Origin: a virus
IMG/VR virus record: IMGVR_UViG_3300009183_000038
Coordinates: 1 to 29,715 of that record
DNA length: 29,715 nt
Direction: 5' to 3' (one strand)
The notes under the pieces were generated by a model, which saw only the letters and a program-made list of their open reading frames with translations, made no database searches and was not told the DNA's origin. The stretch's first letter is position 1; each line of letters begins with the position of its first letter. Positions 1 to 29,715 of the stretch are shown one piece after another. The position numbers and the translations under genes were made by a program.

Positions 1-171
1 TATTCCCGCAATACCAACGGCCACAAGTGATTTGACAAATGACGGTGAGGATGGTGTTAATCCATTTATAACCGCCAATGATATTCCCGCAATACCAACG
101 GCCACAAGTGATTTGACAAATGATGGGGAGGATGGTGTTAATCCGTTTATAACCGCCAATGATATTCCCGC
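1..171 (+). repeat. 81-bp in-frame tandem repeat at the circular join
   Basis: Copies of an 81-base unit begin at 23 and 104 here and at 29593 and 29674 at the other end of the window. Each unit encodes 27 residues. The copy starting at 104 carries a few substitutions and diverges after about 171. Bases 1-64 equal 29652-29715 exactly, so the ends are probably an assembly overlap within the repeat, giving about three copies if closed at that overlap. The real copy number could be higher because an assembler can collapse such repeats. Confidence 0.9.
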
Positions 172-23708: not shown

Positions 23709-24037
23709 TTTCGTAACCCCGCTTTAATTTGGTTGTCAAGTAATAATGGAGAATCGGAAGCTAAAAAGTCCTCAACATTTTGTGACCATTTAATAAATAG
23801 TTGGTCGTAGCCGTCACAATCAAAATCGATAGGGCAAGAAAAACCTATCTCGGTAACAATGCTTGATCCCGATGGGATTAATTGAATACGGCAAAATGTA
23901 GGATATTGGCCGAATGTTACCGAAGTTTCGCTAATAATGTGAATACCATTGAATGGTTGAATTTTTGGTGACTTTTCGTAAGTTGCGTCCAACACTACTT
24001 GAGCAAGTTGGACAAATTGTTGAATTGATGTTTTCAT
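23705..24037 (-). CDS. First gene of the minus-strand early operon, unknown function
   Basis: The product has 110 residues, helical at the start (MKTSIQQFVQLAQVVLDATY) then strand-rich (VTFGQYPTFCRIQLIPSG). It follows the early promoter at 24066-24098 and so is expected to be the most strongly expressed product immediately after infection. No family recognised. Small first-transcribed phage proteins often act on the host, but nothing in the sequence says so here. Confidence 0.65.
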   Translation of the reverse strand: MKTSIQQFVQLAQVVLDATYEKSPKIQPFNGIHIISETSVTFGQYPTFCRIQLIPSGSSIVTEIGFSCPIDFDCDGYDQLFIKWSQNVEDFLASDSPLLLDNQIKAGLRK

Positions 24038-24065
24038 TGTGTATCTTTGTTTGTTATTGATAGGG

Positions 24066-24098
24066 CAAATGTAAAGTAAGTTTTATGTTTATTCCAAA
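24066..24098 (-). promoter_or_regulatory. Early promoter of the minus-strand operon
   Basis: On the minus strand TTTG (24095-24098) is followed after 21 bases by TACATTTG (24066-24073), a full match to the Bacteroidota TTTG/TAnnTTTG promoter. Arms TGTAAA and TTTACA (24104-24109 and 24070-24075 on this strand) flank it with a 28-base gap, as at 26305-26344. Confidence 0.85.
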
Positions 24099-24143
24099 TT
24101 TATTTTACATCAAAGCCTAATTTATACGCAATCTAAATAAGGA

Positions 24144-24518
24144 ATGCTGAAAAAAAAGATAGTCAAGGTAGGAAGTGAGGCGGCGGTACAAATGGCCATT
24201 GTTCGTTATATCCGTTTTCAATACCCTCACGTTCTATACTGCGCCACGGCGGGTGGGGTAAGAACATCGTTTATGCAATCCGCCCGTCTTAAGATGACTG
24301 GCTATGTCGCGGGTGTTCCTGATCTACTAATATTTGAACCATCCAATGGTTTTCACGGATTAATGATAGAGGTAAAAAAAGATAAGAACAGTTATCCGAC
24401 TAAGCAACAAAAGGAATGGATTGAGAATTTAAATAAACGAGGATATTCGGCACACGTCGCTAAATCTTTTGAGGATGCAAAAAACGTCATCGATAATTAT
24501 TTCAGCCGCAGTATCTAA
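24144..24518 (+). CDS. VRR-NUC domain nuclease
   Basis: The product has 124 residues, almost all of it one VRR-NUC domain: Glu12-x-x-x-Gln16 (SEAAVQ), GGVR at 37-40, GVPDLLIF with Asp60, then LMIEVKK with Glu76 and Lys78, and a later QQKEW. This is the standalone phage form of the family that nicks or resolves structured DNA. It starts the plus-strand unit divergent from the early operon. No clear plus-strand promoter was found in the 106-base gap, so part of its expression may come by other means. It overlaps the sigma-like gene by 50 bases. Confidence 0.85.
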   Translation: MLKKKIVKVGSEAAVQMAIVRYIRFQYPHVLYCATAGGVRTSFMQSARLKMTGYVAGVPDLLIFEPSNGFHGLMIEVKKDKNSYPTKQQKEWIENLNKRGYSAHVAKSFEDAKNVIDNYFSRSI

Positions 24519-24987
24519 ACACTACGAGTATTGGCTCGGATGTGCTATTAAGATAACGCGAACCCGGGAGGAAGCCACCGAACTACTTCACGAAGTTATC
24601 GTGTCATTATACGATTCAGAATCATTTGCAAGGGTTTGCAATAAATCAGATGCCAGGCCTTATGTGTGCGCGGCCCTGTCGATGCAGTACTATTCCAAAG
24701 ATTCAAGGTACTATCGAAAGCTCAAAGACTTTAGCGCACGAACGGTTGAGATAACGAATACTAATTATTGCCAGGAAGATTGGCTGGGTGCAAGGGTTGA
24801 CAATGAACAAGCCGCCATTCTAGTAAGTAGATTACCCGACTTTGAACGCGATCTATTTATGCTCTACATTCAGCCCGATTTTAAACTCAAGAAATTAAGC
24901 GACGAAACCGGCATCCCGGAAAAGTATTTAAAACGAGTTATTCAATTTTCAAAAGAAAAAATAAGAAATCATGTGGTTTGTAAATAG
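24469..24987 (+). CDS. Sigma-factor-like regulator, likely late transcription
   Basis: The product has 172 residues. The first half resembles sigma-70 region 2 (YWLGCAIKITRTREEATELL, then VIVSLYDS), and the end has a region 4 helix-turn-helix: RLPDFERDLFMLYIQ, LKKLSDETGIPEKYLKRVIQ. Both parts are typical of small ECF-type sigma factors. Its start (24469 or 24475) lies in the VRR-NUC gene. A phage sigma could read the three TATATACTA sites at 6872, 9615 and 27724; this is inferred, since those sites keep a host-like -33 element. Confidence 0.65.
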   Translation: MRMQKTSSIIISAAVSKHYEYWLGCAIKITRTREEATELLHEVIVSLYDSESFARVCNKSDARPYVCAALSMQYYSKDSRYYRKLKDFSARTVEITNTNYCQEDWLGARVDNEQAAILVSRLPDFERDLFMLYIQPDFKLKKLSDETGIPEKYLKRVIQFSKEKIRNHVVCK

Positions 24988-25384
24988 TAAATTAAAGTTG
25001 GAACGCCTGGAGATATGCAAAGGGTGCGAACATTATTCAAGTGTCGGTACTTGCGGACGGCCCATTATTGGAAACGAGGTTGAGGTGAATGGTGAGGTGT
25101 TGCACACTTGCGGGTGTGTGATGACGGCTAAGGCTTCATTAGCGGCCGAACATTGCCCTTTAGGCAAGTGGTCAAGTGAAAGGTTACCAAAGGTCGACGG
25201 ATGCGCTTTAAAGGAGTTTATATTGAGCCTAGACGAATACCACGTCAGCAATGAGCAGTTACAAAAGCTATTTGCCTACAAGTCTAAGATTAGTGGAAGG
25301 CACGAACAAGTCAGTACTTGCTCTGATTGCGTGAAAGATTTGATTCAAAATTTAAAAAAACAAGTAAGAAATTTGGAATGTTAG
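24971..25384 (+). CDS. Cysteine-rich zinc-binding-type protein
   Basis: The product has 137 residues. The Cys pattern is C16-x2-C19, C28, C47-x-C49, C62 then C117-x2-C120, with the N-terminal CKGC and CGC(V)M segments widely found in Bacteroidota phage proteins. It probably binds zinc, perhaps as a small transcription or recombination factor. It overlaps the sigma-like gene by 17 bases and is the last gene before the RNA locus. Confidence 0.7.
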   Translation: MWFVNSKLKLERLEICKGCEHYSSVGTCGRPIIGNEVEVNGEVLHTCGCVMTAKASLAAEHCPLGKWSSERLPKVDGCALKEFILSLDEYHVSNEQLQKLFAYKSKISGRHEQVSTCSDCVKDLIQNLKKQVRNLEC

Positions 25385-25402
25385 AAAAGTTGTATATATT
25401 TG
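25372..25402 (+). promoter_or_regulatory. Promoter for the structured RNA
   Basis: TTTG (25372-25375), 19 bases, TATATTTG (25395-25402). This fits the Bacteroidota consensus. It overlaps the end of the cysteine-rich gene, and the transcript would start near 25405-25410, at the base of the RNA's first stem. Confidence 0.75.
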
Positions 25403-25403
25403 C

Positions 25404-25517
25404 CATCACATAAAAGCTTACCCCTTGTTTGAACGACGACCGAACAAGGGTTAAGCAATCAGAAGTGAAAGCTTTTGACCTTAGCCCTGAGAGTCGTCGC
25501 TCAGGGCTTTTTTTTTT
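25404..25517 (+). ncRNA. Compact structured RNA with complementary hairpin loops
   Basis: Expected transcript of about 110 bases. P1: AAAAGCTT (25412-25419) with AAGCTTTT (25469-25476). P2 inside it: CCCTTGTT (25422-25429) with AACAAGGG (25443-25450), loop of 13 bases. P3 is a terminator: AGCCCTGA (25483-25490) with TCAGGGCT (25501-25508), 10-base loop, T tract. The loop of P2 contains CGACGAC (25434-25440) and the loop of P3 GTCGTCG (25493-25499), exact complements over seven bases, so a loop-loop contact is possible. Preceded by a consensus promoter. There is no plausible reading frame. Function unknown; known classes were not recognised. Confidence 0.7.
25483..25517 (+). terminator. Terminator of the structured RNA
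   Basis: Eight-pair stem (AGCCCTGA/TCAGGGCT) with 10-base loop followed by ten T (25508-25517). Confidence 0.93.
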
Positions 25518-25575
25518 GATTCATTTGGGCGGGAGTATATACGTTGGCGAATGAATTGTAATGGCTACCAAGAGG

Positions 25576-25782
25576 TACGGATCAGCCAAACTGCGGTGTA
25601 AAGGAATGAGCAGTATATCCGTAGGCAATTGCACATTGTCTTTAAGTAGATTCCAAGTGTTAGGACGTGCAAGTTCACTAACATATCCGACAGGCGACGA
25701 ATGGCTCCATAAAGCAAAACGTTAAGCCAAAAGGTTCACGACAACTTTACTTCATTTTGAAGTGATGTAAGGTTACTCGTGT
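25576..25782 (+). other. Further structured, gene-poor segment ahead of the HNH gene
   Basis: After the terminator there is no convincing gene until 25815, but several complementary arms: TACGGAT (25576-25582) with ATCCGTA (25617-25623), inside it ACTGC (25590-25594) with GCAGT (25610-25614); TTGCAC (25629-25634) with GTGCAA (25667-25672); TGGCT (25702-25706) with AGCCA (25725-25729); and CACGA (25737-25741) with TCGTG (25777-25781), containing ACTTTAC (25744-25750) with GTAAGGT (25767-25773). A 54-codon frame at 25561-25725 overlaps these arms and is probably chance. The segment may be a structured 5' leader of the HNH gene or a second RNA. Confidence 0.4.
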
Positions 25783-25814
25783 TATCCTTTAAGCTCAGAA
25801 ATCACCAAAAGCAA

Positions 25815-26270
25815 ATGATACAGATACTAACGTACAAAGAAGTAAAAAACAAATTCATGTTTTCAATGAAAATTGAATTAGTGAATAAAGGTTACCGGTT
25901 AGGAAAATTACACCAGGACACATCAACTTATTGTGAATTGCATTCAATACCATTTAACCGGATAAACCTTAAAAGAATAATCAATGATCTTGTAATAGAG
26001 TATGCAGTCACTTATGGAATCAAAATAATAAATCCGGATATAAAGAAAGGCAAACATTTAACCGGTGTTCTTTGGATGGAATTACGCACCCGGTTATTTG
26101 CTGAACATAAAAATGAGTGCCGGTGTTGTGGTGCTACTAAATTTTTACAAGCAGATCACATTTACCCGGTTAGCATTTATCCGGAACTTCAATTAGAATA
26201 CTCAAACCTTCAGATACTTTGCCGGGGGTGTAACATACGGAAGGGCAACCGGTACGTAAAAAAATACTAA
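25815..26270 (+). CDS. HNH endonuclease, foreign codon use
   Basis: From the ATG at 25815 the product has 151 residues (a GTG at 25779 is also in frame, adding 12 residues and overlapping a hairpin). The C-terminal domain is HNH: ECRCCGATKFLQADHIYPVS, then YSNLQILCRGCNIRKGNR, with Asp-His, Asn and paired CxxC cysteines for zinc. The N-terminal 90 residues are basic and helical, possibly DNA binding. The gene has ten CCGG in 456 bases, about one per kb elsewhere by eye, and uses CGG for six Arg codons. It looks like a homing or mobile nuclease recently gained. Confidence 0.85.
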   Translation: MIQILTYKEVKNKFMFSMKIELVNKGYRLGKLHQDTSTYCELHSIPFNRINLKRIINDLVIEYAVTYGIKIINPDIKKGKHLTGVLWMELRTRLFAEHKNECRCCGATKFLQADHIYPVSIYPELQLEYSNLQILCRGCNIRKGNRYVKKY

Positions 26271-26275
26271 ATGTT

Positions 26276-26294
26276 ATTTAGAATGATTCTAAAT
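26276..26294. promoter_or_regulatory. Palindromic operator candidate (copy 2)
   Basis: ATTTAGAAT-G-ATTCTAAAT is a perfect 9+1+9 palindrome, 21 bases before the -33 element at 26316. Its core equals the palindrome at 9595-9607. Confidence 0.55.
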
Positions 26295-26315
26295 TAAGGC
26301 AATTTGTAAAATAAA

Positions 26316-26348
26316 TTTGGATTGGTATTAAAGTTTGTTTTACATTTG
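26316..26348 (+). promoter_or_regulatory. Early promoter of the small plus-strand gene cluster
   Basis: TTTG (26316-26319), 21 bases, TACATTTG (26341-26348). It shares TGTAAAATAAATTTGG and the downstream CTATCAA...ATAACAAA with the minus-strand promoter at 24066-24098. TGTAAA (26305-26310) and TTTACA (26339-26344) form an inverted repeat with the same 28-base gap. The first gene starts 32 bases downstream. Confidence 0.85.
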
Positions 26349-26380
26349 CTCTATCAAAATAACAAAATATTAGAAACTAA

Positions 26381-28520: not shown

Positions 28521-29715
28521 GCTCAAGGCATTTGCCAACGGCCATTATTTAATTAACACTTTCACATATCATGAGATTGCGAACTTTGATATAACAAAGA
28601 ATCCGCAATACCCGATAATGCACGTTGTGCCGGTATCGATGAATCCAACCAAGGGGGCAATCGATTACTCGTTCAATATTACTTTTGCGGATTGGGTTAG
28701 AGCAAAAGAGGAAAAGCAAGAAAACGAGGTAACCGTTATAAGTGATCTACACAGATGCGCTTTGGACTTATGCGCTGAGATAACCAACGGTAATATTTTA
28801 TTCGGGGACGAAGTGTCTATAAACGGCGACGCGGTAATTGAACCGTTCATCGACGAATTTGCCAATGTGTTAAGTGGAGTTACACTTCAAATAACTATCC
28901 GAGTTCCTTACGATTGGTCGGCTTGTGACATTCCCGCGAACTGGGTTGAGGGTACCGGTGACATTCCTGATTTCGGCGGACGTTCTTTGACGATGGACAT
29001 TTACGACGAAGGTGACTTTATTGTTTCCGCGCGTGAAATGGATTTTGTTGGTGAGGGCGTTACTGTAACTTATACGGGCAACCGCGCGATAGTGACAATT
29101 ACGGGCGGTGGAGGTGGTGGCGCGGGTACGCTCCAAGAAACAACCGACAACGGTAACACCACAACCAACGACATCGAGTTCATTGACGCGGCTGAGGTAA
29201 GATTTGGTGCGGGTGGTGGCGTGTTGTTGGACAATGCTTCAAGGCTTCGTGAGGGTACTATCGATGCCAATACGGGTGGATCAAAAGGCATTGCTCAAAT
29301 ATGTGGAGTTGGCTATGAATTGAAGTGGGAGGCGGGAAGCCAATACGCAATGAATGGCAACGGTGACGCTATCCGCGTTGTTGATTATAAGTTTAACATT
29401 GCGCCCGTAGTTACTGACGATAGTTCATCGGGCTTTTACGTTGGCTCACGATGGATACTTGATAACGGGGATTCTTATGTTTGCACGGATGCAACTATCG
29501 GTGCTGCGGTTTGGGAAATTGAGACCTATGCCGATTGGAATGCAGCAAGTGGCTCACGTGAGATAGCTAACAAGCCAACCATTCCAACACTAACAAGTGA
29601 TTTGACAAATGACGGTGAGGATGGTGTTAATCCATTTATAACCGCCAATGATATTCCCGCAATACCAACGGCCACAAGTGATTTGACAAATGACGGTGAG
29701 GATGGTGTTAATCCA
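28486..29715 (+). CDS. Tail-terminator-like domain fused to tail fibre (N-terminal part; continues at 1-1849)
   Basis: The frame runs open from the ATG at 28486 to the window end (410 codons) and continues in the frame of the segment at 2-1849. Residues 1-155, beginning MIDNSYYIILNRLKAFANGH and including DYSFNITFADWVRAKEEKQE, resemble the small tail terminator / completion proteins found after tail-tube genes. Residues about 170-240 form a Gly-rich linker. A later domain includes VGYELKWEAGSQYAM and SGFYVGSRWILDNGDSYVCT, then ADWNAASGSREIANKP before the 27-residue repeats. It starts inside the chaperone T extension, so tail chaperone and fibre are coupled. The terminator reading is from pattern only. 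Confidence 0.8.
   Translation, partial: MIDNSYYIILNRLKAFANGHYLINTFTYHEIANFDITKNPQYPIMHVVPVSMNPTKGAIDYSFNITFADWVRAKEEKQENEVTVISDLHRCALDLCAEITNGNILFGDEVSINGDAVIEPFIDEFANVLSGVTLQITIRVPYDWSACDIPANWVEGTGDIPDFGGRSLTMDIYDEGDFIVSAREMDFVGEGVTVTYTGNRAIVTITGGGGGGAGTLQETTDNGNTTTNDIEFIDAAEVRFGAGGGVLLDNASRLREGTIDANTGGSKGIAQICGVGYELKWEAGSQYAMNGNGDAIRVVDYKFNIAPVVTDDSSSGFYVGSRWILDNGDSYVCTDATIGAAVWEIETYADWNAASGSREIANKPTIPTLTSDLTNDGEDGVNPFITANDIPAIPTATSDLTNDGEDGVNP
29593..29715 (+). repeat. 81-bp tandem repeat at the right end, with 64-bp terminal overlap
   Basis: Copies begin at 29593 and 29674; the second is cut by the window end. Bases 29652-29715 equal bases 1-64. See the repeat at 1-171. Confidence 0.92.

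Follow-up and report, generated by a model that had tools for sequence, protein, structure and literature searches.

A 29.7-kb virus record (IMG/VR IMGVR_UViG_3300009183_000038; 29,715 nt, here called the window) encodes a small RNA in which the loop of an intrinsic terminator is complementary to the loop of an upstream hairpin. Contact between the two loops is strongly supported by sequence comparison with relatives. The RNA class is absent from Rfam, and the searches made did not detect it in isolated phages. Its carriers appear to be viruses of Bacteroidota-like bacteria, and it resembles a control element of a kind not described before. The features of the locus are as follows.

24971–25384, plus strand: cysteine-rich protein gene, directly upstream of the RNA
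25372–25402, plus strand: Bacteroidota-type promoter, assigned from the sequence (TTTG 25372–25375, 19-nt spacer, TATATTTG 25395–25402)
25408–25517, plus strand: kissing-loop terminator RNA (fold z −6.8; covariance-model matches in relatives)
25416–25456, plus strand: hairpin P1 of the MFE fold (5 bp, 1x1 mismatch, 10 bp; loop 25432–25440)
25434–25440, plus strand: P1 loop segment CGACGAC, exact complement of 25493–25499
25459–25478, plus strand: hairpin P2 (UCAGAAGU, GAAA loop, GCUUUUGA; stem 25459–25466/25471–25478)
25483–25508, plus strand: intrinsic terminator hairpin P3 (9 bp, 25483–25491/25500–25508; 8-nt loop 25492–25499)
25493–25499, plus strand: P3 loop segment GTCGTCG, partner of 25434–25440
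25508–25517, plus strand: terminator T-run, from the sequence
25518–25814, plus strand: second structured non-coding element of about 300 nt, between the terminator and the HNH gene and separate from the kissing-loop RNA
25815–26270, plus strand: HNH endonuclease gene, the first downstream gene (ATG at 25815; Pfam PF01844, PHROG phrog_144)

The initial annotation placed a consensus Bacteroidota promoter ahead of the RNA. TTTG, a 19-nt spacer and TATATTTG, which we take to be the Bacteroidota promoter form, are present, and TAnnTTTG is kept, with equal or similar spacing to the RNA, in L026, L040, L032, L033, L035, L042 and many loci of a second group, B. The transcript would start approximately 5–7 nt past TATATTTG. 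The three-hairpin fold (P1, P2 and P3) scored better than 200 of 200 shuffles. In P1, positions 25416–25420 pair with 25452–25456 and positions 25422–25431 with 25441–25450, with a single C.U mismatch between them. The terminator hairpin was also correctly recognized, as P3 and its T-run are found in the window and the terminator is conserved. The 8-bp closing stem proposed in the same annotation (AAAAGCTT/AAGCTTTT) can be drawn in the window at a cost of 8.1 kcal/mol relative to the three-hairpin fold. It was rejected as a conserved structure, being interrupted or shortened in L026, L040, L032 and L033. Another alternative stem, AAAAGCUU/AAGCUUUU, opens the base of P1 along with P2, leaves P3 in place, and is without conservation.

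The CGACGAC/GTCGTCG complement between the P1 and P3 loops is exact over 7 nt in the window. For one RNA taken alone, the chance of such a complement is roughly 4 × 10^−4 (about six registers over 4^7). The evidence from relatives is more extensive. The first close contigs were reached through a neighboring gene (L002/L022 and L003/L023), and L023 carries an RNA identical to that of the window followed by unrelated DNA past the terminator. L026 was found by a pattern of the P2 region that did not include the loops; its loops (CGACAAC/GTTGTCG) differ from those of the window by one change per side with all seven pairs kept, and the protein adjoining the RNA has only 34% identity. A covariance model lacking the loop-loop contact was then run over 80 loci of a nearby gene. 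L040 (UCGAGAC/GUCUCGA), L032 (CGGAAUC/GAUUCCG), L033 (CAAUCAC/GUGAUUG), L035 (CUGCAACC/GGUUGCAG) and L042 (GUACAAG/CUUGUAC) each have 7–8 exact loop pairs built from mutually unrelated loop sequences, and this set was not selected for complementarity. P1 is rebuilt from different sequence in L032, L033 and L042. Of note, the end of contig L178 (3436–3470) lies inside a probable further group A RNA (TATCTTTG ... GGCTTGCCCCTTGT).

A descriptor script for a terminator hairpin whose loop complements that of an upstream hairpin over at least 7 nt gave 13 matches in 1.04 Mb of related loci versus 2, 0 and 1 in dinucleotide shuffles. This search added groups B (L100, L084 and L090), D (L098, with 10 nt) and E (L101); complementarity was the selection criterion for D and E, each represented by a single locus. 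More group B loci came from a pattern without the loops and were then recognized with the descriptor. Replication-initiator loci yielded a family F with a different stem architecture (CTCACTAC/GTAGTGAG, CTCTCGAC/GTCGAGAG and GTTCTCAC/GTGAGAAC), and GTAGGAGT loops are common to many phages. Groups A to F may be homologous or convergent.

In total, 18 loop-pair types from metagenomic phages were collected, each complementary over 7–10 nt within its own RNA with duplex energies of −6.7 to −15.4 kcal/mol. Mismatched loop combinations had a mean complement of 2.7 nt, none of the 306 reached 7, and no permutation out of 200,000 equalled the observed complement total. Since some types were picked by complementarity (B1–B3, D and E, plus the B4–B6 and F types), what the 18-type matrix demonstrates is orthogonality; evidence free of selection bias comes from the group A/C set together with the compensated stems and loops. 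In a group B alignment of 21 sequences (A6), 97.7% of cells were paired and 13 of 32 pairs were doubly compensated, values equalled by none of 500 shuffles on every measure and with slid controls far lower. P1 of group B has two-sided changes at 9 of 11 pairs, and the loop-loop helix has two doubly compensated pairs with up to three pair types. The check across related phages suggested in the initial annotation returned compensatory changes in both stems and loops. The seven-base complement noted in that annotation is real and was understated, and the kissing contact it raised is strongly supported by compensatory change over the 18 loop types.

The RNA and its surroundings have different histories. 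Between the window and L026, the RNA is 95% identical, but identity over the upstream kilobase is 62%, no higher than for unrelated DNA in this comparison. Among L026, L040, L032 and L033, the upstream DNA is 89–91% identical, the RNAs are 70–83% identical and the loops are different. The same is seen when L037 is included, with neighboring DNA 88–91% identical across L026, L032, L033, L037 and L040, RNAs mostly 70–83% alike and loops that differ. From this mismatch between RNA and flank identity, the RNA moves and diversifies independently of its neighbors. This exchange of alleles is accounted for by recombination at a hot spot and requires no special selection; the loops may also be under selection to diversify.

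The cysteine-rich protein gene precedes the RNA in groups A and C. In the window, this gene closes an operon (24144–25384) with VRR-NUC and sigma-like genes, and the VRR-NUC and sigma pair also occurs in Nonlabens phage P12024L. Downstream of the RNA, groups A and C present a recombination hot spot occupied by HNH, phosphoesterase, methylase or GIY-YIG-like genes, of which the last two kinds were assigned by eye. The second structured element of the window (MFE −79 kcal/mol over 25509–25815; no Rfam match) is 91–94% identical in L033/L035 and is replaced by unrelated elements in L023/L040 (77% identical to each other) and in L026. A 119-nt tRNA-like gene directly follows the RNA in L026 (11572–11690); it matches the Rfam tRNA model at 37.6 bits, has an odd anticodon arm and was not called by ARAGORN. 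Elsewhere in the window, two intergenic, promoter-like regions (24031–24140 and 26274–26370) carry inverted copies of a stretch of some 95 bp that are 77% identical. Long open frames at both ends of the window (1–160 and 29526–29715) encode the same short repeat, PTATSDLTNDGEDGVNPFITANDI, which suggests a circular genome cut within a repeat.

The position of the RNA is most regular in the other groups. In 30 of 31 group B and D loci, the first ORF starts 7–17 nt past the terminator hairpin; in the larger subgroups, the terminator ends approximately 7–19 nt ahead of the start codon, usually that of a replication-initiator gene. Downstream of the RNA, groups B and D encode proteins of several unrelated kinds, among them Lin1244_N initiators, HNH nucleases, small unknown proteins, an HTH replication initiator and a weak DnaD_N match. 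Since a gap of 7–17 nt leaves no space for a second promoter, expression from this region needs read-through. A scan anchored on the Lin1244_N-type gene only covered 80 loci, of which 62 scored automatically versus 106 of 800 shuffled leaders (13%). After a check by eye, in which L234, L256, L275 and L296 were added and L292 was moved, the RNA lies directly upstream in about 65 of the 80. Eight further loci have it 150–480 nt upstream with extra sequence between the RNA and the gene. The RNA was co-directional with the downstream genes in the loci examined. An attenuator-type layout, consisting of a promoter, a structured leader and an intrinsic terminator just before a start codon, occurs in groups B and F and in the single group D locus.

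An operon leader is the preferred reading of these data, at about even probability. Transcription from its own promoter would give a leader of some 100 nt with three hairpins. At P3, most polymerases would terminate, freeing a stable small RNA, and some would continue into the downstream operon. Pairing of the P1 loop with the terminator loop (7–10 bp) would set the frequency of termination, the stability of the released RNA, or both. Partial termination and its tuning by the loop contact are presumed. For group A, to which the window belongs, the leader model is proposed by architectural likeness, with a second structured element standing before the HNH gene. The distance to the next gene in group A (approximately 245–370 nt, and about 300 nt in the window) argues against the model. 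No antiterminator pairing or conserved helix competing with the P3 stem was found, so classical attenuation is only a possible mechanism. The T-run ahead of the start codon could in part be an AU-rich translation enhancer. Of the roles offered in the initial annotation, control of late read-through stands in part: relatives do have an operon leader with a terminator that needs read-through, but the genes downstream are replication and accessory genes with no sign of late genes. A host-regulator mimic and a nuclease-resistant RNA received no specific support from the present results.

The main competitor, which is somewhat unlikely, is a stand-alone small RNA acting in trans. The contact would then do no more than build a stable compact fold, a host or phage partner would bind at the conserved P2 region, and the gene-proximal position would be incidental. 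Among close group A members, P2 and its linkers are the best conserved part of the RNA and nearly invariant, which suggests a trans partner as well. The succession in group A of the RNA and other structured elements or a tRNA-like gene resembles an RNA gene cluster, and the RNA is swapped as a cassette, as the window and L026 illustrate. A free RNA gene has no need, however, of the fixed position before the start codon of the same gene class that is found in most group B and F loci. The loop contact may form in cis or between molecules. In the second case, which is doubtful, terminated RNAs would form dimers or bind nascent leaders, the resulting feedback would depend on dosage as with the copy-number RNAs of plasmids, and hypervariable loops would make phage systems orthogonal. 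By a rigid-helix estimate, a coaxial contact in groups A and B puts the hairpin bases 87–90 Å apart while the linkers reach approximately 68 Å, such that a cis contact would require the helices to meet at roughly 100 degrees or less. The position ahead of replication initiators also fits, as do the differing loops of L026, L032, L033, L037 and L040 beside flanks that are 88–91% identical. The angle estimate is crude though, and the P1 mismatch could bend; the long linkers of group E permit a cis contact easily, co-transcriptional folding favors cis pairing, and GTAGGAGT loops are shared across many phages. A self-recognition RNA, in which a released leader pairs loop-to-loop only with nascent leaders or RNAs made by its own phage, is likewise doubtful. 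If true, it would provide dosage-sensitive replication control and allele-specific interference between co-infecting phages, with loop alleles diversifying like plasmid incompatibility groups.

A structural or packaging RNA of the phi29 pRNA kind is very improbable. The complementary loop pair, which covaries from phage to phage and could join molecules, recalls such a role; the lack of a conserved helix linking the 5' end to the 3' end, the presence of an ordinary terminase large subunit and the location ahead of replication or accessory genes speak against it. Least probable, to the point of being negligible, is that the RNA-like look is incidental and reflects chance or some feature of the DNA itself, for instance a recombination site. 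The locus is a mosaic boundary, but the compensatory stem and loop changes, the conserved promoter and terminator, and shuffles far below the observed values are against it, and it is already contradicted by the covariation.

The claim that no known phage RNA class has this layout holds against Rfam 15 and limited literature searches. No Rfam 15 family reached its gathering score for the window RNA or the group representatives; at a relaxed E-value, L10_leader (21.4 bits, gathering 44) and rnk_leader were below half of the gathering score, rested mainly on the terminator and were dismissed. The window RNA had no blastn match in isolated phages and plasmids, and the group B, C and F leaders had short chance matches only in isolated phages. 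Among GTDB genomes, the exact group B pattern had no matches; the exact group A pattern had 10, none with the architecture, and the seven that were read closely look like chance. Weak matches in the isolated Bacteroidota phages 11b, phi10:1, P12002L, 6H and P12024L were judged to be chance, and host MAGs gave low-scoring covariance-model matches. Among phages with related initiators, the upstream genes overlap in those of Vibrio, and one of Enterococcus has a gap of about 45 nt, in both cases with no space for a leader. A search of openly licensed papers identified no matching RNA.

Several known systems invite comparison. The pRNA of phi29 contains a pair of loops that are complementary to each other and covary across phages. 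The RNA described here likewise has two such loops; it differs in having no end-joining helix or three-way junction, 7–10 rather than 4 pairing bases, and an ordinary terminase. The ColE1 RNAI/RNAII and pT181/pMV158-type copy-number RNAs of plasmids combine loop-loop recognition, compensating loop alleles and a link to the replication initiator. All three are shared by the phage RNA, but both of its loops are within one RNA and there is no evident antisense transcript; by direct reading of 25517–25620 for the TAnnTTTG promoter type only, no CAAANNTA (minus-strand TAnnTTTG) was present. GOLLD and ROOL are reported to be large homo-oligomeric non-coding RNAs with loop-loop contacts and a link to phages (PMC12286853). 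The non-coding nature, the loop-loop contacts and the phage link are shared, and the RNA described here differs in its length of about 100 nt and in matching no Rfam family model. The other nearest papers concern RNA dimers (PMC7357161) and orthogonal attenuators (PMC3753616). The loop-paired terminator RNA may be considered a variant of leader/attenuator RNA. Like transcription-attenuation leaders, it has its own promoter, a structured leader, a terminator near the start codon and a need for read-through. It differs in that no competing antiterminator helix was found and the loop of an upstream hairpin pairs with the terminator loop, which is its hallmark and is accompanied by exceptionally clear covariation. 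Its location before replication-initiator genes in many phages may reveal how these phages time or dose replication, and the 18 natural loop pairs make the mechanism directly testable by loop swaps and are possible parts for synthetic regulators.
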